Shown here piece by piece: positions 10,636 to 30,195 of a stretch of 33,136 bases of DNA. A program made the position numbers and the translations under genes. The DNA is from Sphingomonas sp. (GTDB lineage: Bacteria > Pseudomonadota > Alphaproteobacteria > Sphingomonadales > Sphingomonadaceae). Location of the stretch: positions 1-33,136 of the forward strand of contig JAICXO010000015.1 in assembly GCA_025980335.1 (NCBI GenBank), read 5' to 3'. How positions within the stretch are numbered: the stretch's first letter is position 1; each line of letters begins with the position of its first letter. The notes below the pieces were generated by a model, which made no database searches, was not told the DNA's origin, and saw nothing but the letters and a program-made list of their open reading frames with translations.

Positions 10636-13600
10636 TCAGCCGGCCGCGCCCGAGCGCTGCTGGTTGAGGCGGAACAGCCGCGCGAGGATTTCGTCGTCGC
10701 TCAGCCCCTGTCCTGAGCCTGTCGAAGGGACGCCCGCGCGCCAGTCGTCGCCCCAGCCGTAGGCCTCGGCAACGGCTTCATCGAGCGCCCGATGCGCATT
10801 GTCGAGCCAGGCCGGCCGCGCGTTGTAGAGGTTGGTGAGCGTGCGCTTCTTGAGCTCCTTCGCCGCGTCCTCGTCTTTCGGGAGGATGCGGTCGGGATAG
10901 CCGGGCACGACCTCCGGCTCGCGCACGACGAGGTCGGGCGGGTTGAGCCAGTTCTCGCGGAGTTCGTTCAGCCGCGCCGCGGCGTCGGCGACCGCCTGCG
11001 CGCGCGGGTCGTCGGCGTAATCGGCGGCAGGGATGTCGGGCGTCAGGCCGTCGGGGAAGGGGAAGGTCTCGAAAGTGGTCGAGGGCGTGTAGCGCGGCCG
11101 GTCCTCCAGTGACGTGCCCATCCGAAGCGCCCAGAGCTCGTGGAAGCGCGAGTGGAGGATGCCGAACGTCGTGTCGTCGTCGCGTGCGAATACGATTAAT
11201 TGGCAGTCAGGCAACGCTGACGCGTCCAACCAAGCGAACAAGCGGAACTTCGCTACTCGTGGCGTGCAGATATACCGGGTGAGACCAGCTAGAGCTTGGC
11301 GCATTTCCGCGCGGGGGCGTTGATGTAGCCACCACCCTTCCAGCGAGCGAGTTTCGCGTCCCCTCAGAGGCGGCTTATTTTCCTTTGTTCGCGCCTCATT
11401 CTCCTTCTCGAATGCCGATTGGAGATGCTGGAACGGCGTTTCGAAGAGCGCGGCGTCGCCCTCGCTCAGTTCGGTCCCGAAGTCGATGATCCAGTGCCCA
11501 GCAGGTCTTCGAGTAATATCCAGCCCGTTGCACCATGGCCGAAGCACAGTCGCGTTCTTTGCCCCATTCGGATTCGCGGCAAGCCGGAGCCAATCCCGAG
11601 CAGTTTCAGCTGAGACATCAAAAGGTCCGGTCTTAATCGTGCCCTGGTACGAAACGTGCTGATTGGGCGGCAACATATCGGCCTTTGTAAGGTCGACGGA
11701 TTCGCGGCCGGCAGTAAGATCGGGCAAGACTGAATCGACGGGCGTCCCGTCCAGCTCGGCACTGCCATGCTTCACATCGAAGCACACTAGCGAAACTCGA
11801 ACCGCCGCGCCCTCGACGGTCCATTCCTCGTCACTCCACGCCTCAAAGATGCGGCCATTTTCGACGATGACCCTCAGCACATCCCGGTTGGCACCGCCGC
11901 GTATACTGTTTGTGGCAACCAGACCCGCTCTTACCGCGCGGCCGCTGACGATCATCGCCCACGCCTTGGCGAACCAGTAGCAGACGAGATCGACCCCGCC
12001 CGGCACTTCGGGCCACGCCTTGCGCAAGGCCAGCGTATAATCCTCGCCCAGGTCGCGGATCATCTTCTTGTTGCCCAGAAACGGCGGGTTGCCGATGATC
12101 ACGTCGGCCTCGGGCCATTCGGCGCGGGTGGGAACTGATCCTCCCCCGAACGGGGAGGATGAGCGGGTCGGGACTGCCCCCAGCAGTCCCGCATTCCGCT
12201 CATCCGCGCCAGCGGCTGACGGAGGGGGCCCACGGTCGGGCTGCTTGCCAGCGCCGTGTTCCTGCTCAATGCGTGCGCCCCCTCCACCACTCGGCTGCGC
12301 CGAGCGGTCCCCCTCCCCGTTCCGGGGAGGATTGAAAGAGAGCACCGCATCGCGGCACTCGATCGTGTCGAGCGAGCGTAGAATCGGGTTCCGCGCTGCC
12401 TCGAAGCCGTTGCGGCGCATCCACTGGATTTCGCCGATCCACACCGACACCCGGGCCAGCTCCGCGGCATAGGGGTTGAGCTCGATCCCGAGCACGCATT
12501 CGGGCCCGACTCGCGGGAAGCCGCGATGGAGGCCGAGCGCTTCGGCGTCGAGGTTGGCGCGGTGCTCGATGTCCTTGAGCGCCCGAAGCGCGACGTAGAG
12601 GAAATTGCCCGATCCGCAGGCGGGGTCGAGCACGCGGAAGTTCGCCAGCCGCGCGATGAAGGCTTCGTGGATCGCCTCGGCCTCGGCGAGCGCGCGTGTC
12701 CGCTTGGCGAGCTCTGCGCCGCGCAGCAGCTTGTCCTTCGTCGGCTTCGGCGCATTCTCGACCAGCGCGGTCATCCGCGCCAGCGCTTCGGCCCATTGCG
12801 CTTCGAGCGGTTCGATGATCACCGGCCGGACGATCATCATGATCTTCTCGCGGTCGGTGTAGTGCGCCCCCAATTGGCTGCGCTTGTCGGGGTCGAGCCC
12901 GCGTTCGAACAGGGTGCCGAGAATCGACGGGTCGATCTGCGACCAGTCGCGGCGCGCGGCCTTGATCAGCTCGTCGATATCGTCGGTGCTGACCGGCAGC
13001 ACCGAATCGTCCTCGAACAGGCCGCCGTTGAACCAGTCGATCGCGGTGAAGCCGACCTTGCCGTTCTTGTGCGCCATGGCGCCGAACAGGGTGCGCGCAT
13101 TCTCCTCGAACCCTTTCGGGTCGCGGCGGCTGACCTCGAGCATCTTCGTGAACAAGTGATCGGGGAGGAGACCGACGTCCTCGGCGAACATGCAGAACAC
13201 GAGGCGGTTGACGAAATGCGCGACACGATGCGCTTCGTGGCCGCGGTCGCGCAGCCGCTGGGCGAGCCCGGCGAACTCGCGCGCGGTTTCCTCGGTCAGC
13301 GCCTGACGGGTCTTTTGCGGGCGGAAGGCTTCGGGATCGGTGAACGCCTGCTTGAGCTGCTCGCGCTTGGCGCCGTCGAGCAGGTCGTCGAGGGTGAAGT
13401 CGTGCACTTCCTGGACCGTGTTGGTCCAGTTGGTGTGGACCCGGATCAGGTCCATGTCGGACGCGATCAGGAGCGGCGGGTTTTCGAGCGCGACGCTGTA
13501 CTGCTGGAGCTGCGCGAAGGCCTTCTGCAAATTGGCGTGGCGGCCCTTGTATTCCCAGGCGAAGCAGGCCTTGCGCCAGACGTCGGCCCAGCCGTCGCCG

Positions 13601-13773
13601 CCGCTCGTCTTGCTCGCGCCCTTTTCGAACGTGAACCAGTCGCCCTGCGGGTCGGCGCTGACCGGATCGAGCAGGCCGAGCAGCGCGCAGAGGTCGTTGA
13701 AATGGCTCTGCGAGGCCGAGCGCTCCTTGAGCTCGACGCCGCGCCATTTGGCGACGAATTCGTGCGGAGTCAC
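10636..13773 (-). CDS. MmeI-like (type IIL) single-chain restriction-modification enzyme / class I DNA methyltransferase
   Basis: This 1045-residue protein is read from GTG 13773. Residues ~1-160 form an N-terminal nuclease-like domain with a PD-(D/E)xK pattern: Asp64 (GWADVW) and Glu74-Tyr75-Lys76 (FAWEYKG). A helical spacer follows. The N6-adenine methyltransferase domain has SAM motif I, DPACGSGNF (383-391), and catalytic NPPF (562-565). The remainder (~650-1000) fits a target-recognition and C-terminal region. MmeI-type enzymes cut and methylate with one polypeptide and one specificity domain. It is some 70-100 residues longer than I would expect, largely because residues ~481-546 and ~1015-1024 are translated repeats (separate entries). 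No partner restriction gene is visible. It is divergent from ahcY. Whether nuclease activity survives is unknown. Confidence 0.88.
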   Translation of the reverse strand: MTPHEFVAKWRGVELKERSASQSHFNDLCALLGLLDPVSADPQGDWFTFEKGASKTSGGDGWADVWRKACFAWEYKGRHANLQKAFAQLQQYSVALENPPLLIASDMDLIRVHTNWTNTVQEVHDFTLDDLLDGAKREQLKQAFTDPEAFRPQKTRQALTEETAREFAGLAQRLRDRGHEAHRVAHFVNRLVFCMFAEDVGLLPDHLFTKMLEVSRRDPKGFEENARTLFGAMAHKNGKVGFTAIDWFNGGLFEDDSVLPVSTDDIDELIKAARRDWSQIDPSILGTLFERGLDPDKRSQLGAHYTDREKIMMIVRPVIIEPLEAQWAEALARMTALVENAPKPTKDKLLRGAELAKRTRALAEAEAIHEAFIARLANFRVLDPACGSGNFLYVALRALKDIEHRANLDAEALGLHRGFPRVGPECVLGIELNPYAAELARVSVWIGEIQWMRRNGFEAARNPILRSLDTIECRDAVLSFNPPRNGEGDRSAQPSGGGGARIEQEHGAGKQPDRGPPPSAAGADERNAGLLGAVPTRSSSPFGGGSVPTRAEWPEADVIIGNPPFLGNKKMIRDLGEDYTLALRKAWPEVPGGVDLVCYWFAKAWAMIVSGRAVRAGLVATNSIRGGANRDVLRVIVENGRIFEAWSDEEWTVEGAAVRVSLVCFDVKHGSAELDGTPVDSVLPDLTAGRESVDLTKADMLPPNQHVSYQGTIKTGPFDVSAETARDWLRLAANPNGAKNATVLRPWCNGLDITRRPAGHWIIDFGTELSEGDAALFETPFQHLQSAFEKENEARTKENKPPLRGRETRSLEGWWLHQRPRAEMRQALAGLTRYICTPRVAKFRLFAWLDASALPDCQLIVFARDDDTTFGILHSRFHELWALRMGTSLEDRPRYTPSTTFETFPFPDGLTPDIPAADYADDPRAQAVADAAARLNELRENWLNPPDLVVREPEVVPGYPDRILPKDEDAAKELKKRTLTNLYNARPAWLDNAHRALDEAVAEAYGWGDDWRAGVPSTGSGQGLSDDEILARLFRLNQQRSGAAG
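10705..10730. repeat. REP-like element translated inside the RM gene
   Basis: The minus strand reads tcccttcgacaggctcagga then caggg. This matches the short repeat I recall from many Sphingomonas and other alphaproteobacterial intergenic regions (CCCTTCGACAGGCTCAGGAC-type). Here it is inside the coding frame, 31 codons from the end, and gives the peptide VPSTGSGQG (residues 1015-1023). That this is an inserted repeat, not ancestral coding sequence, is inferred from the match. Confidence 0.7.
12138..12331. repeat. Nested palindromic element inserted in frame in the methyltransferase domain
   Basis: The left end (12138-12160) is a hairpin with arms atcctcccc/ggggaggat; the right end (12312-12330) is a hairpin with arms cctcccc/ggggagg. 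The two ends are also inverted copies of each other. Inside lie a third hairpin (gggactgc 12170-12177 / gcagtccc 12183-12190), a 9-bp inverted pair (ggagggggc 12221-12229 / gccccctcc 12277-12285) and a hairpin ctcggc/gccgag (12290-12304). From 12140 to 12331 it is 192 bp, exactly 64 codons, without a stop in the gene's frame. It encodes Pro/Gly/Ser-rich sequence placed 16 codons before catalytic NPPF. It resembles sphingomonad intergenic repeats I remember; copy number is unverified. Confidence 0.8.
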
Positions 13774-22799: not shown

Positions 22800-23557
22800 G
22801 CCAGGCCAAGCGCGCGCTCAGGCTTCGCGCCGAAGTGCCGGCGGAAGTGCCGCCCACGGCGATGATCATGGCGGCAGGGCTGGGCAAGCGCATGCGCCCG
22901 CTGACCGCGACCAGGCCCAAGCCGCTGATCGAGGTCGGCGGCAAGGCTTTGCTCGACCATGTGCTCGAAAAGCTGCGCGTGTCGGGCGTGAAAAAGGTGG
23001 TCGTCAACGTCCACTATCTCGCCGGCGCCCTCGAAGCGCACTTGCTGAGCCGCGCGCACGGGCTGGAGGTGGTGATCTCGGACGAGCGCGACCTGCTGAT
23101 GGAGACCGGCGGGGGGCTCGTCAAAGCGGCGCCGCTGATCGACTGCGACCCGTTCCTCGCGCTCAACAGCGACAATCTGTGGATCGACGGACCGGCCGAC
23201 ACGCTCAAGCTGCTCGCGTCGCAATGGGACGGCGCCAGGATGGACGCGCTGCTGCTGCTGGTGCCGCTCGCGCGCGCGCTCAACCATGGCGGGATGGGCG
23301 ACTTCCACATGGACCGGACGGGGCGGCTTCGCCGGCGGCAGCGCAGCCGTGTCGCGCCGTTCGTGTTCACCGGGATCCAGATGGTGTCGAAGCGCCTGCT
23401 CCGCGACGCGCCGGAAGGACCGTTTTCGACCAACATCCTGTGGGACCGCGCAATCGAGGAGGGCCGCTGTTTCGGCGCGGTCCACCAGGGGCTGTGGTTC
23501 GACGTCGGGACTCCGCAATCGATCCAGCTGACGGAAACGGCGCTCGAGAATGTCTGA
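22796..23557 (+). CDS. murU: N-acetylmuramate alpha-1-phosphate uridylyltransferase (MurU)
   Basis: This 253-residue sugar-phosphate nucleotidyltransferase would convert MurNAc-1-P and UTP into UDP-MurNAc, completing recycling after AmgK. The nucleotide-binding signature is MAAGLGKRMRPLTATRPKPL (from residue ~24), followed by ETGGGLVKA and the metal-binding region LNSDNLW. The start is GTG 22796, which overlaps the amgK stop as GTGA. The in-frame ATG at 22862 gives a 231-residue protein that would also be functional, since the first 22 residues precede the family's usual start. The last 8 bases overlap addB. Confidence 0.92.
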   Translation: MSQAKRALRLRAEVPAEVPPTAMIMAAGLGKRMRPLTATRPKPLIEVGGKALLDHVLEKLRVSGVKKVVVNVHYLAGALEAHLLSRAHGLEVVISDERDLLMETGGGLVKAAPLIDCDPFLALNSDNLWIDGPADTLKLLASQWDGARMDALLLLVPLARALNHGGMGDFHMDRTGRLRRRQRSRVAPFVFTGIQMVSKRLLRDAPEGPFSTNILWDRAIEEGRCFGAVHQGLWFDVGTPQSIQLTETALENV

Positions 23558-26432
23558 TGCGGCGCGGGTCGCCGTGTTCACCATCCCGTCGCACCGCTCG
23601 TTCGCCGATGCGCTCGCGGCCGGGCTGATCGCGCGCTTCGGCAAGGATCCGCTGGCCCTCGCGCGCGGGCGCGTGCTGCTGCCCAACAACCGCGCAGTGC
23701 GGGCGGTGACCGACGCGTTCGTTCGGGCGAGCGGCAAGGGGCTCCTGTTGCCGCGGCTGATCCCCGTGGGCGATCCGGAGATCGACGAGCGCATCGGCGG
23801 CGCGCTCGACCCCGTGGATTCGCCGCCCGTGCCGCCTGCGATCGACCCGACCGAGCGCCTGCTGAACCTGGCGAGCATCGTCGGTGCGGATGGCTCGGCC
23901 GAGGGACTGCGGCTCGCGGCCGATCTCGCGCGTACGCTCGACGCTTTGCTGATCGAGGAGATCGACCCGACGGCGCTCCGCGATGCCGTTGACGAGAGCA
24001 GCGACCTCGCGAGCCATTGGGAAAAGTCGCTGCTCAAGCTGCAGCTGATCTACGAAGCATGGCCCGAACTGCTTCGCGAGCGGGGCGCGATCGATCTCGC
24101 CGAGCGCCGCAATCGCGTACTGCATGCGCTTGCCGAGCGGTGGAAGAGCGATCCTCCTGCCGGCTTCACGGTAGCCGCGGGCATCACGACTGCCGCACCC
24201 GCGGTGGCGGCCGTGCTCAGACGGGTAGCGCACATGCCGGAGGGGATGGTGGTGCTTCCGGGGCTGTGGCTCGGAGATGTATTCCCGAAGAAGGAGTGGG
24301 ACGCGCTCGGGCCCGACGAGGACAAGCGCGGAGAAGCCACGCATCCGCAATATCATCTCAAGCTGTTGCTCGACCGAATCGGCGTCGCGCGCGACGAGGT
24401 GCGGCGCTGGCGCTGGTCGGGGCGTGCCGCATCGCCCCCGGCGCGGTCGCGGGCGGTGGCGAATGCGATGGCGGCGCCCGAATTCTCGCACAAATGGGAG
24501 ACGCTTCGCGCGGCCGAGCGGCGCCTGGGCGGAATTCGCGTCGCCGAGTTCCCCGACGCCGCAGCCGAGGCGCAGGCGGTCGCGCTTGCGCTGCGCGATG
24601 CCCTCGAGACTCCCGGCAAGACCGCTGCGCTCGTCACTCCGGACCGGCAGCTTGCAGGCCGCGTTTCGGCGTTGCTGCGGCGATGGGGAATCGAGGCGGA
24701 CGACAGCGCGGGCAAACCGCTCTCGCACGCGGCGACCGGAACCCTGCTCCTTGGCATTGCCGCAGCCGCCGCCGAAGAGCTTGCGCCGGTGCCGGTTCTG
24801 GCGCTGCTCAAGCATCCGCTCGTCGGCGCGGAGGCCGAGCAGAGACCGGAATGGCTCGAGCAGGTTCGGACGCTCGACAGGGCATTGCGCGGTCCGCGTC
24901 CGCCTGCCGGTTTGGCCGGGCTCGACGCGCTCTTTGCCGAGAAGGACGCGGTGCGCGCTTGGGCAGCAGTTCGTGAGCGCCTTTCAGGCCTCGACGGGGT
25001 GCTCCGCCAACCGATCTCGCTTTCGCGGTTCGCGACGCTCCTCGGGCAGGCTGCGACGGCGCTTGCCGACGATCGGGCATGGCGCGGACCGGATGGCCGG
25101 ATGGCGGCGGAGCTGCTCGCGGAGCTGCAATCCTCCGAATCCGCCGCGCGACTGAACGTCACTGCCGCCGACGCTGTGCCGCTGCTGCGGCAGCTGCTCG
25201 ACGATCGCGCGGTTCGGCCGCCCTATGGCGGGCACCCGCGCATCTTCATCTGGGGCCTCCTCGAAGCGCGGCTCCAGCGGGCCGACCTGTTGGTGCTCGG
25301 CGGGCTCAACGAGGGGGTGTGGCCGTCGCTCCCGGCGCCCGATCCGTGGCTTCCGCCGAAGATTCGCGCGACGCTCGGGATGCCGACGCTCGAGTTCCGG
25401 ATCGGGCTTGCCGCGCACGATTTCGCGAGCGCGCTCGGGGCACCCGAAGTGCTGATCACCCGGGCGAGGCGCGACAGCCGCTCGCCGACGATCGCATCGC
25501 GATTTCTGCTCCGCCTCGACGCGATCAGCGGTGGGCTTCCGCGCGACCTCACGCTCGAGCGGCTGACCCGTGCGCTCGACGATCCGGGAGCGCCTAAGCC
25601 CGTCGACCGGCCTGCACCCGCGCCGGGTGCCGAAGAGCGGCCGAAGGAGATCTGGGTAACGGAGGTCGACCGGTTGAAGGCGGACCCCTTCGCTTTTTAT
25701 GCGAGCGCGATCCTTCGGCTGCGCATGCTCGACCCGCTCGATGCCGATTATTCGGCGCGATGGAAGGGCGACGAAGTCCACAAGGTGTTCGAGGCGTGGC
25801 TCAAGCACGACAATTGCGATCCCGACAAGCTCCGCGCGCGGGCCGAGCGGCTGCTTGCCGATGAGGCGGTTCACCCGATGCTCCGCGCGCTGTGGGCGCC
25901 GCGGCTGCTCGAGGCGATCGACTGGATCGCCGATCTGGAAAGGAAGAACCAGGCGGAGGGACGCAATCCGCTTCGCGCGGAGATTACCGGCGAGTCTCCG
26001 CTCGCAGGCATCCTCGTCCATGGCCGCGCGGATCGGATCGATTCCTTGCCAGATGGCGGGCTGGCGATCGTCGATTACAAGACGGGCAAGCCACCGACGA
26101 AGAAGGCGATCGAGGCGGGATTCGCGCTGCAGCTCGGGCTTCTGGGCCTGATCGGCCGAGCGGGCGGGTTCGAGGGCGTCAGCGGCGAGCCGGAAGTGTT
26201 CGAATATTGGTCGCTTATCCGCGACCGCGACAAGTTCGGGAAATGCGTGCGCGCCGACAAGGACATGAGCGAAGGCGAGTTCCTCGATCGCGCCTATCGG
26301 ACCTTCGCTGACGCCGCCGAAAAATGGCTGAACGGGACCGAGCCGTTCACGGCCAAGCTCAATCCCGCTTACGCGCCCTACGGCGACTACGACCAGCTGA
26401 TGCGGCTGGAGGAATGGTACGGGCGGAAGTGA
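23550..26432 (+). CDS. addB: Double-strand break repair protein AddB
   Basis: This 960-residue subunit pairs with AddA in the RecBCD-like helicase-nuclease that resects broken DNA ends for RecA. The N-terminal half is a degenerate helicase fold (FTIPSHRSFADALAAGL, with no Walker A, as usual in alphaproteobacterial AddB). Motif-like blocks include LVLGGLNEGVWPSLPAPDPW. The C-terminal nuclease domain has Asp828 (GRADRID) and Asp842-Tyr843-Lys844 (IVDYKTGK). I see no iron-sulphur cysteine set like that of Bacillus AddB. It starts inside the last codons of murU and ends 355 bp before addA, an unusually wide gap for this pair. Confidence 0.95.
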   Translation: MSDAARVAVFTIPSHRSFADALAAGLIARFGKDPLALARGRVLLPNNRAVRAVTDAFVRASGKGLLLPRLIPVGDPEIDERIGGALDPVDSPPVPPAIDPTERLLNLASIVGADGSAEGLRLAADLARTLDALLIEEIDPTALRDAVDESSDLASHWEKSLLKLQLIYEAWPELLRERGAIDLAERRNRVLHALAERWKSDPPAGFTVAAGITTAAPAVAAVLRRVAHMPEGMVVLPGLWLGDVFPKKEWDALGPDEDKRGEATHPQYHLKLLLDRIGVARDEVRRWRWSGRAASPPARSRAVANAMAAPEFSHKWETLRAAERRLGGIRVAEFPDAAAEAQAVALALRDALETPGKTAALVTPDRQLAGRVSALLRRWGIEADDSAGKPLSHAATGTLLLGIAAAAAEELAPVPVLALLKHPLVGAEAEQRPEWLEQVRTLDRALRGPRPPAGLAGLDALFAEKDAVRAWAAVRERLSGLDGVLRQPISLSRFATLLGQAATALADDRAWRGPDGRMAAELLAELQSSESAARLNVTAADAVPLLRQLLDDRAVRPPYGGHPRIFIWGLLEARLQRADLLVLGGLNEGVWPSLPAPDPWLPPKIRATLGMPTLEFRIGLAAHDFASALGAPEVLITRARRDSRSPTIASRFLLRLDAISGGLPRDLTLERLTRALDDPGAPKPVDRPAPAPGAEERPKEIWVTEVDRLKADPFAFYASAILRLRMLDPLDADYSARWKGDEVHKVFEAWLKHDNCDPDKLRARAERLLADEAVHPMLRALWAPRLLEAIDWIADLERKNQAEGRNPLRAEITGESPLAGILVHGRADRIDSLPDGGLAIVDYKTGKPPTKKAIEAGFALQLGLLGLIGRAGGFEGVSGEPEVFEYWSLIRDRDKFGKCVRADKDMSEGEFLDRAYRTFADAAEKWLNGTEPFTAKLNPAYAPYGDYDQLMRLEEWYGRK

Positions 26433-26473: not shown

Positions 26474-26604
26474 AGCCCTCCCCCTTGTGGGGAGGGTTGG
26501 GTGGGGGCGCGGCATCGGCGTGAGCCTATGACGCCGGCAAGAGAGTCCTTTCGGCCGCAGACGCGGCCGGCCCCCTGCCAACCTCCCCCACAAGGGGGGA
26601 GGCT
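26474..26604. repeat. Palindromic element with ~33-bp imperfect terminal inverted repeats, addB-addA gap
   Basis: The left end (agccctcccccttgtggg... from 26474) and the reverse complement of the right end (agcctccccccttgtggg... to 26604) match over about 33 bases with a handful of differences. Each arm is itself nearly a hairpin (ctcccc...ggggag). The core holds ggccgc/gcggcc (26553-26568). This ~131-bp element recalls miniature inverted-repeat or REP-type elements of sphingomonads and shares its cctcccc...ggggagg end style with the element in the RM gene. No transposase is present. It ends 2 bp from the stop codon of the 46-codon gene. Confidence 0.75.
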
Positions 26605-26787: not shown

Positions 26788-29700
26788 ATGAGCGGGCGGC
26801 TCAAAACGCTCCCCGAGCTCAAGGGCGAGCAGGCGCTTGCGGTCGACCCGGCTGTCCATGCCGCTGTGTCGGCGTCCGCCGGCAGCGGCAAGACGCAGGT
26901 GCTGACGGCGCGCGTGCTTCGACTGCTGCTGAAGGGAGCGCGGCCCGAATCGATCCTGTGCCTGACCTTCACCAAGGCGGCAGCGGCGGAAATGGCGAAC
27001 CGCATCGGTCAGCGGCTTGCCGCCTGGGTGCGGCTCAAGGACAGCGAGTTGGCGCTGGATCTCCTTCACCTCGGCGAATCGAACGATCCTCGAACCCGGG
27101 AACGCGCGCGGCAGCTGTTCGCGCGGGTGCTCGATTGCCCCGGCGGGCTCAAGATCCAGACGATCCATGCGTTCGCTCAGTCATTGCTCGCGGCGTTTCC
27201 TGCGGAGGCGGGGATTACGCCCGGATTCCAGCCGATCGAGGGCAGGGCGGAGCAGGAGCTGGTGCGGCGAACGCTGGCCGAGTTGATGGCGGACGCCGAA
27301 GCGCAGGGCGATGAGGGGCTGATCGCCGACGTCCAGTGCCTCAGCCGACGGTTGGGCGAGGGCGGGGCGGTCGAATATCTCCAGGCCTGCGCCCGACGAG
27401 CGGAAGCATTGGCCTCGCTCGGGCCGGGCGATGGCATCGAGCCGCTCGTCCGTCAGCTGATGAAATTGCCCGAGGGTTCGGTCGAGGAATATCTCGCTGG
27501 TCAATGCGCCGACGACGGGTTCGACTGCGACCTGCTGCGCGCGATCGCGAACGCGAACCGCAGCTGGGGTACCACGACGGGCCACGGCATCGTCGAGGAT
27601 ATCGAGGAGTGGCTGTCGCTGCCGGCTGCCGAACGCGCGGCATCGCTGCCGGCGCTTTCGCTGGTGGTCTTTACCGGTAAGGGCGAGCTCAGGAAGACGT
27701 CGGCAGGCCAGCTCAAGGCCGATGCGGATTACGACCGGCATGTCGAGCGGCTCGCGAACAAGATCGCCGAGCTGCTGACGGTCCAGCGCGCATCGAAGCT
27801 GGCGGCGGACATGGCTGCGGGATTGCGTGCGGGCCAGGCGTTTGCCGCAGCCTATACGCGCGCCAAGCGGGCTGCCGGCGTTGCCGACTTCAACGACCTC
27901 ATCGATTGGACCCGCCAGCTGCTCGCCACGCCCGGAATGGGCGACTGGGTACGGTACAAGCTCGACCGCGAGGTCGACCATGTGCTGGTCGACGAGGCCC
28001 AAGACACCAACGCGGCGCAGTGGGAAATCATCGAGAGCATCGTCGAGGAATATTTCACCGGCTCGAGCGAGGCCGACCAGCGGCGGCGCACCCTTTTCAT
28101 GGTCGGCGACTTCAAGCAGGCGATCTACGGGTTTCAGGGGACCGATCCGCAGCGGTTCCGCGAGGCGCGCGCGCATTTCAAGCGGCGCTCGGAAGAGCTG
28201 GGCGAATCCGACGCCGCAACCGAATTCCGCGACCTTTCGATCGCCGCCAGTTATCGCTCGGCGCAATCGGTTCTGGAGGTCGTCGATGCGGTGATCGACA
28301 CGCTGGGACCGCCGGAGCTTGGGCTTGGCGCACGTCCGCCGCGCCACGCCGCATTCCACGCCGACCGGTCCGGTCAGGTGGAGCTGTGGCAACCATTCGC
28401 GCCAGAGTTCGACGAGGATTCCGAGGAAGGCGAGGAGAGTTGGGTCAGCATCCGCGCGCGGCAATATGCCGATGCGCTTGCCGAACGGATCCGCGACCTC
28501 GTCCAGGAGGCGCCGTATCTGCCTTCGACGAAGCGGCCGCTGACCCCGGGCGACGTCCTCGTGCTCGTCCGCAGCCGAAGCGAGCTGGCGTCGCTGATCG
28601 TCGCGCGACTGTTCTCGGCCGGCGTGCCGGTGGCCGGGGTGGACCGGCTTCACCTTCACGAGCCGCTGGCCGTCCAGGACCTTCTCGCCGCCGTTAAGTT
28701 CGCGGTTCAGCCGAACGACGATCTGAGCCTTGCCTGCCTGCTGGTTTCGCCGCTCGTCGGCTGGGATCAGGAGCAGCTGCGGACGCTTGCGTACGGTCGC
28801 AAGGGGAGGCTCTGGCCCGAGCTCCGGCGGAGGTCGGATGAGGATGGCGCGTTCCGTGCTGCGCACGAGGCGCTTTCCGAGTTGCTGCGGATTGCCGATT
28901 TCACCACGCCCGCGGTGTTCCTGGAGACGATCCTGTCGGGGCCGATGCAGGGGAGGCGCAAGCTTTACGGCCGGCTCGGGATGGCCGCCCGCGATCCGAT
29001 CGACGAGTTGCTCAACAGCGCGCTGGAGTTCGAGCGCAACGAAACCGCGTCGCTCGACCGCTTTCTCGCCTGGTTTTCGCGCGGGACCGTCGACGTGCAG
29101 CGCGATCCCGGACGGCCGGCGAACGAAGTGCGGGTGATGACCGTTCACGGCGCCAAGGGCCTCGAAGCGCCGGTCGTCATCCTCGCCGACGCGACCGCCG
29201 ATCCGGCGCGGCTCGGGCGCACGCCGCTCACCCTCGATTTCGAGGTTCAATCGGGCTCTGTCGCCCCGTTGCTGAGGCCCAAGAAGGACGAGCGCTGCTG
29301 GCCGTTCGAGGAGATGATCGTCGCTCAGGAGAAGCGCGACTTAGAGGAGCATTGGCGGCTCCTGTACGTCGCACTGACGCGCGCCGCAGACCGGCTGATC
29401 GTGAGCGGCGTGGCGCCGAAGCCGAAGAAGGACGGCTCCGAGGCGCGGCCGGCCAATTGCTGGCACGTCGCGGTCGAGCGCGCGCTGACGTCGCTCAATG
29501 CCGACGCCGCGGATCACGGCAAGTGGGGCTCGGGCCTGAGATACGGCGCGGCGGCCGCCGGCAAGGCAAAGGCGAAGAAGGAGAAGGCCGGACTCTCGCC
29601 CGTTGCAGTGCCCGCGTGGGCGACGAGCCCGGCGCCGCCCGAAGCGCGGCCGCCGCGGCCGCTCGCTCCGTCGGCGATCGCGGCGGATGACGAAAGTGCT

Positions 29701-30195
29701 CCTCCGCCGAGCGAGGCGATGCGCGCCGCGGCGCAACGCGGCACCTGGATCCACCAGCTGCTCGAGCGCCTGCCCGGTATCGAGCCTGCGAAGCGCGCGG
29801 CGGCCGCGGACCGCTGGCTCGAGCGCTCAGCAGGCGTGGCCGATGCTTCCGCACGGGCGGAGATCGTAAAGCAGGTTTGCGGCGTTCTGGGCGATGCGCG
29901 TTTCTCCGACCTGTTCGGCACCGCCTCGGTCGGCGAGGCGCCGCTCGCCGCGACGCTGCCGGATGGCCGCGTGATTGCCGGCACGGTCGACCGGCTGCTG
30001 ATCGAGGACCGGCGGATTTCGGTAATCGACTTCAAAACGGGGCGGGTGCCGGCCAGCGGCACCGACATTCCGAATTCGCATCGCGCGCAGATGACCGCCT
30101 ATACCGAGGCGCTCCGGGTGATCTTCCCCGGCCGGCAGGTCCGCGCTGCCTTACTCTACACGGCAGGGCCGAAGCTGATCGAGTTGCCGGGTTGA
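26788..30195 (+). CDS. addA: Double-strand break repair helicase-nuclease AddA
   Basis: This 1135-residue UvrD-family 3'-5' helicase with a C-terminal nuclease is the AddB partner. Walker A is SASAGSGKT (Lys35), followed by [12 protein letters not shown] (motif Ia), Walker B LVDEAQD (Asp402-Glu403), [10 protein letters not shown] (motif III), [11 protein letters not shown] (motif V) and [11 protein letters not shown] (motif VI). The nuclease motif is Asp1068 (GTVDRLL) plus Asp1081-Phe-Lys1083 (VIDFKTGR). The insert at ~940-980, rich in Ala, Pro and Lys, is a linker between helicase and nuclease. ATG 26788 has ggaag ~7 bp upstream. trxA follows after 56 bp. Confidence 0.96.

Follow-up and report, generated by a model that had tools for sequence, protein, structure and literature searches.

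In a Sphingomonas sp., a palindromic repeat of 195 bp has been inserted in frame into the gene of an MmeI-like Type IIG restriction-methyltransferase, and repeats of the same family lie in frame inside other genes of the genus. The DNA analysed, referred to here as the window, is a stretch of 33,136 nucleotides (assembly GCA_025980335.1, contig JAICXO010000015.1, positions 1-33,136). The insertion occupies 12138..12332 on the minus strand and corresponds to residues 481-546 of the enzyme, with a partial codon at each end. It is quite probable that a REP-like element of sphingomonads entered a loop of the methyltransferase and is translated as a disordered loop that the protein tolerates, the enzyme probably remaining functional. 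In the proposed course of events, the repeat would move or be copied into the gene as a dimer with a nested palindrome, would insert between strand beta-3 and motif IV, and would then be read as a surface loop, disordered and some 66 residues long. It would have been kept and translated because it adds, in net terms, a multiple of three and is largely free of stops, and it would have survived because this loop can take an addition of such a length. The enzyme probably still works, since the loop tolerates insertions and other bacteria bear unrelated palindromic repeats in it. On the available sequences, a tolerated selfish insertion is most likely.

The enzyme, the element and the comparison with homologues

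The host gene (10636..13773, minus strand) is an open reading frame of 1045 aa identified by PADLOC, Pfam and PDB comparisons. The PADLOC model for Type IIG restriction-methyltransferases (PDLC03627) matches residues 2-1042 with E=0, and Pfam recognises the methyltransferase (MmeI_Mtase) and spacer (MmeI_hel) families, while MmeI_TRD, at 26.4 bits, falls just below its 27-bit cut-off. The closest PDB entry, by sequence and by fold, is MmeI (5hr4), and the single chain has the MmeI / Type IIL-like layout of nuclease, spacer, gamma-class methyltransferase and TRD, with NPPF. With the motifs named as in PMC4833311, SAM-binding motif I is DPACGSG (residues 383-389; 12607..12627, minus strand) and catalytic motif IV is NPPF (residues 562-565; 12079..12090, minus strand). 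Both are kept, the 1045 codons contain no stop or frameshift, and the columns of H304 and W651, equivalent to His314 and Trp570 in an alignment with the MmeI sequence, are intact. MmeI shares the domain order, the fold and the NPPF motif IV, but has 43 residues between positions 433 and 477, whereas the window enzyme has 106 between the matching positions 451 and 558. A second short in-frame insert, VPSTGSGQG (10707..10728, minus strand), lies near the C terminus, where the window enzyme has 12 residues and the 76 aligned relatives have 0-4. A search for PSTGSGQ with at most two mismatches gave one copy in the own genome and, among 312 loci (those overlapping the window counted once), one in L153; with a single copy in the own genome, its identity as a REP copy is unproven.

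The insertion is a tail-to-tail dimer of two-hairpin repeat units with a nested palindrome. Unit A (12277..12332, minus strand), supported by a 17-row alignment, consists of a hairpin formed by TCCTCCCC, a loop and GGGGAGG, followed by GGGACC, a variable stem-loop and GGTGGAGGGG. Unit B (12138..12231, plus strand) is inverted, carries the tail TGACGGAGGGG and has its variable stem interrupted by the nested 45-bp palindrome ATGAGCGG...CCGCTCAT (12159..12203); a search with unit A recovers only its first hairpin, with an E of 1.2. By subtraction, the spacer between the units is 12232..12276. The terminal arms (12138-12165 and 12305-12332) are inverted copies of 28 nt with 86% complementarity, as the original prediction held, and the three further internal pairs that it described are found at 12203-12234/12272-12303 (72% complementary), 12152-12166/12196-12210 (87%) and 12169-12177/12183-12191 (100%). 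As RNA, the coding strand has a folding energy of -139.3 kcal/mol; dinucleotide shuffles average -97.4 (sd 4.6), and 0/200 fold as well (z -9.1). Folded as DNA with its flanks, the element reaches z -5.6 (0/200 shuffles as good). The sole Rfam match lies outside the element, far below the gathering score. Close copies of the nested palindrome outside the window are confined to genome G012, with a weaker one in G003; the matches in G004, G035 and G061 look like chance, the reversed control pattern itself giving 6 matches, and an abundant second family is not supported. Elsewhere in the window, a PD-(D/E)XK gene (23550-26432, plus strand) is followed by a UvrD-plus-PD-(D/E)XK gene (26788-30195, plus strand), which we take to resemble an AddB/AddA pair. 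Directly after the AddB-like gene, a solitary CCCTCCCC...GGGGAGG hairpin (26476-26496) differs by one mismatch from the end-hairpin pattern of the repeat.

It is the homologue comparison, and not the open frame, that demonstrates the insertion. The enzyme alignment has 77 rows, namely the window enzyme and 76 of 80 named relatives; the remaining four (L158, L172, L180 and L187), whose reading frames are broken, were kept out and looked at separately. The stretch from S479 to W553 comprises 73 residues in the window enzyme against 7 in 54 of the 77 rows, the commonest length, which gives a net gain of 66. When the enzyme was searched against 149 genomes of the family, 63 matched, the own genome included, and the nearest relatives (G097, G160, G213, G103 and G129) skip the insert, their aligned spans being 1-479 (1-482 in G103) and 545-550 to 1041-1043. 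Among 71 genomes of the genus, 23 matched, again with the own genome; G023, G053 and G054 also skip it, the G053 copy containing a stop. In seven relatives, aligned both as protein and as DNA, a short loop stands at the position of the repeat, somewhat longer in L043. The same 65 residues were found in no homologue examined, other genera included. The flanks of the junctions show only CA...CA and no clear target duplication, and the loop lengths of relatives vary. Among the genomes compared, no close strain shares the insertion. Outside the insert, pairwise dN is 0.14-0.28 and dS 0.53-1.43, a divergence mostly older than the insertion.

The inverted pairs, the folding and this comparison together bear out an in-frame nested palindrome within the methyltransferase gene, facing short loops in homologues and separated from NPPF by 16 codons (residues 546-561), all as predicted. 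Two figures needed adjustment: an exact multiple of three applies to 12138-12332 (195 bp, 65 codons) and not to the 194 bp of 12138-12331, and the expected gain of about 64 residues becomes a net 66 against the commonest loop. The frame is indeed free of stops. As proof of insertion this was rejected, since dinucleotide shuffles of the element leave a given frame open in 1193/2000 cases (60%), which makes the argument weak on its own.

The repeat family and its copies inside genes

Matches to the element occur in 38 of the 71 genus genomes, the own included, and the own genome holds 8 further partial matches besides the window copy; copies in related genomes, on which the original prediction partly depended, are thus present. 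In 118 fetched loci, the profile search found 215 unit matches, distributed over 115 loci and 152 clusters. Two-unit clusters are almost uniformly ordered plus then minus (54, against one of the opposite order); these 55 clusters measure 80-159 bp, 47 of them spanning 100-139 bp, while the window copy reaches 195 bp. In 17 distinct units, 96.5% of the cells pair, and 18 cells changed on both sides compared with 3.7 in shuffles (0/500 as many) and 1-5 in slid versions of the alignment. The double changes fall in 5 pairs, all in the second, variable stem, and 29/500 shuffles also reach 5 pairs. The end hairpin of the repeat is also seen in IMG/VR viral contigs (L336-L415), where a plus then minus hairpin pair 70-200 bp apart is present in 16 of 80 loci among the matches listed.

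The census of in-gene copies covered 37 loci from the matches in the own and the genus genomes and 80 regions chosen among the genus-genome matches listed, which were ranked by likeness to the window element, and it is therefore not a random sample. It yielded 148 non-redundant clusters in 29 genomes, or 147 elements when the two units of the window are counted once, and 31 of these 147, the window included, lie in frame inside Pfam-backed genes. The 30 other copies come from 15 genomes and have coding-like flanks on both sides; 22 are multi-unit. By codon score alone, 35 of the 148 non-redundant clusters pass, and 18 of 152 under a strict criterion. The Pfam scan took in 33 reading frames, of which 28, holding the 30 clusters, were counted and five were set aside: L011, L082 and L148 (no family), L020 (family below the cut-off) and L140 (a peptidase with a repeat match of only 21 bp). 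With genes named by Pfam domain, 7 of the copies fall in a hydantoinase A/B fusion, 3 each in RNase R, methylmalonyl-CoA mutase and TruB, 2 each in CoaBC, MurD, ABC-F and an ImuB-like gene, and one each in GlyS, ThiC, UvrA, UvrD, ValS and a second MmeI-like enzyme (G054, L018). GlyS, ValS and MurD are normally essential. A single Pfam match encloses the repeat in GlyS, in methylmalonyl-CoA mutase (L084, L142), in one RNase R copy of L016 and one of L123, and in one hydantoinase copy (L134). Unit A is read in all three frames, giving the peptides SSPERGGG, PPRNGEGD and ILPGTGRG. The share of open frames is 0.84 for dimers in candidate genes (0.71 in their shuffles) and 0.76 for the remaining dimers (0.65 in theirs). 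Two in-frame dimers are found within one hydantoinase A/B gene of G056 (L134:1264-4398), and likewise within one RNase R gene of G048 (L016:3-2420).

Recurrent insertions in the pre-NPPF loop and a similar pattern in TruB

Repeat-type inserts occupy the pre-NPPF loop in 12 of the 81 sequences examined: the window enzyme, ten of the 76 aligned relatives (L160, L190, L191, L192, L212, L217, L220, L221, L233 and L235) and L158, an Altererythrobacter sequence outside the main alignment with a repeat-type palindrome in the same loop. Four of these (L192, L212, L217 and L220) derive from one MAG, and L160 is from a Sphingorhabdus MAG. Pairwise alignment of the inserts on both strands, scored against 200 shuffles, separates five types: the window with L160 (z 11); L190, L191, L192, L212 and L217 (z 18 to 51); L220, L221 and L233 (z 8 to 16); and two of a single member each, L235 and L158. 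Scores between types do not exceed z 4.0, and a few (L160-L190 and L221-L235, for example) exceed all shuffles, perhaps through distant kinship or a composition in common. In L160 the loop is 73 residues long and made of the window's repeat family, in a different frame and with unit B first, where the window has unit A first. This opposite order implies either separate events or the inversion of one copy, and the L160 insertion reads as independent of that in the window.

Some of the inserts are themselves repeated in genomes: the L190 insert, used as query for all three, has 29 matches in G217, 41 in G218 and 25 in G219, and 38 and 15 matches to loop inserts were counted in G220 and G221. For the L220 and L221 inserts, further copies were seen in the same locus only. 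The MmeI-like genes L220, L221 and L235 each contain one to four more copies of their own repeat elsewhere in the gene. Ten of the eleven loop-insert relatives other than the window have reading frames of 975-1073 aa; L158 is broken further on, its longest reading frame being 605 aa, consistent with decay in one lineage or more. An exact-arm test applied to inserts throughout the enzyme family (arms of at least 8 in 17/55 insert pieces, against 55/1100 random windows) was given no weight because the alignment cuts inserts into pieces. Altererythrobacter and Sphingorhabdus are alphaproteobacteria, Sulfuricella and Gallionella betaproteobacteria and Competibacteraceae gammaproteobacteria. Within the literature searched, the convergence of apparently unrelated repeat types on the pre-NPPF loop, from alpha- to gammaproteobacteria, appears to be new. 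As this one loop seems to have taken up unrelated repeats independently, it resembles a landing site that tolerates such DNA, and the recurrence would presumably reflect tolerance by the protein rather than the choice of a target.

A similar pattern, within the genus, is suggested by the sequences of TruB. The set comprised 53 loci (30 best matches, 20 mostly long or broken matches and 3 from the census), with L316, L317-L335, L090, L132 and L152 among those involved, and 51 were readable, the exceptions being L300 and L334. The variable stretch has 31 residues in 27 of the 51 loci and at least 45 in 19. Fifteen of these 19 carry, at one site, one of four types separated by their peptides and not as DNA repeats, for which names were coined here: GNDE (6), the window's family (4), QVQHD (3) and LRWHD (2); four are unassigned. 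The own genome has a GNDE-type insert in its TruB (L316, on C100). Of the 67 genomes in which truB was found, 66 have one copy.

Fate of the enzyme and relation to known repeats

In the AF2 model, residues 483-541 of the insert have pLDDT below 50 and no secondary structure, the flanking strands 471-473 and 558-561 are present, and block 551-560 is at 95. The model thus predicts a disordered insert in a confident enzyme core, in keeping with the loop originally foreseen, low pLDDT being expected of any insert without aligned relatives. It was also suggested that the insertion could have damaged the enzyme. In that case the gene would be a pseudogene of recent origin that has stayed open by chance, the element being a multiple of three in length, GC-rich and poor in stops. 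The ease with which shuffled elements keep the frame open (1193/2000) is consistent with this, as are the second small insert and the broken reading frames, 599-689 aa long, of 4 of the 80 relatives (L158, L172, L180 and L187); restriction genes are also often lost. However, the window gene has kept 1045 codons without stop or frameshift as well as its active-site motifs, the same loop holds repeats in 11 other relatives, 10 of them with reading frames of 975-1073 aa, and the same family is in frame within housekeeping genes. Inactivation is therefore unlikely, and the tolerated insertion is favoured, though not proven, on sequence grounds.

It appears considerably less plausible that the element owes its persistence to its RNA, the hairpin delaying ribosomes or RNA polymerase and reducing the amount of a dangerous nuclease. 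The very stable fold of the coding strand (z -9.1) would suit such a role, and strong folds are likewise seen in the loop inserts of seven other relatives (z -3.7 to -5.7, with mononucleotide shuffles as reference), but folding is not unusual in L191 and L221 (z -0.6 each) and modest in L220 (-2.4) and L233 (-2.8). Moreover, strong folding belongs to the repeat at any location, and the same family resides in many housekeeping genes without such a need. The view that the additional residues belong to the enzyme family as an ancient, conserved domain or loop is refuted, despite loops of 15-19 residues in L159, L161, L185, L198, L200, L203, L222 and L224 (z -1.6 to 1.2, little or no better than shuffles), by the 7-residue loop of 54/77 rows and by the presence of the peptide-encoding repeat DNA at other sites.

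The tolerated insertion has its closest parallels among repeats already known to be translated. The Rickettsia palindromic elements (RPE) are described, in parts of PMC3767692 and PMC10969869, as 100-150-bp palindromic repeats located in frame inside unrelated genes. The likeness to them that was originally proposed is supported by the 30 further Pfam-backed in-gene copies, the sphingomonad family having, like RPE, many palindromic copies, many of them in frame in unrelated genes. RPE-4, RPE-6 and RPE-7 are described with an ATGAC motif, whereas the window element is a TCCTCCCC two-hairpin dimer, a separation that is based on published descriptions. RPE are hosted by Rickettsia and the window element by a GC-rich Sphingomonadaceae genome, and because of this host it is not classed among the RPE. 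In the sections consulted of PMC3733652, in-frame REP singles and dimers are reported from several bacteria, in truB (E. litoralis, S. alaskensis), tRNA synthetases, uvrA and recB, so within that source the kind is already known outside Rickettsia, sphingomonad truB included. The same sections state that, within a functional category of genes, REPs occupy different sites, except in recB of two Xanthomonas, and that CGTC families have no dedicated transposase, which seems to hold for the sphingomonad family as well. GTAG and CGTC REPs have a terminal tag and one stem of 8-9 bp, whereas the sphingomonad family has two hairpins per unit and no terminal tag: CGTC REPs carry a terminal CGTC tag and a stem starting AT, while unit A starts with TCCTCCCC and has two stems, and CGTC occurs in the window element only inside the tail of unit B.

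Y1 transposases are known mobilisers of GTAG REPs. A RAYT-type Y1 transposase (PF01797) is found in just 3 of the 71 genus genomes (G037, G051 and G056, all repeat-carrying), and was not found in the own genome, which is 83% complete, nor in the high-copy genomes G017, G047, G048, G050 and G059; mobilisation by RAYT is not supported. Compared with MITEs, the element does have terminal inverted repeats, its 28-nt arms; its junctions show only CA...CA, short of a clear target-site duplication.

Within the literature searched, the repeat family, its extent across the genus and the convergence of different classes on one loop appear to be new; the search listings contained nothing on palindromic repeats within an MmeI or TruB loop. 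Tentatively, and at somewhat less than an even chance, a few loops, namely that before motif IV in MmeI-like enzymes and one in TruB, may be shared landing sites at which lineages of different classes each acquire an in-frame palindromic repeat of their own, the repeats turning over, perhaps by the nesting of one palindrome within another that the window shows. In Rickettsia orthologues, according to part of PMC3767692, inserts occupy the same loci and sometimes belong to different RPE groups; that text weighs a hotspot for separate insertions against one diverged insertion and leans to the second. If the shared landing sites are real, different repeats at one site would, for MmeI-like enzymes and TruB, be separate insertions at a hotspot and would answer the question as posed there. 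The findings add a GC-rich sphingomonad genus, with copies inside housekeeping enzymes, to the range of translated palindromic repeats, and raise the testable question of whether protein tolerance or a DNA target decides where such repeats survive. They also offer a collection of naturally occurring loop insertions in a family of restriction-methyltransferases that is well studied.
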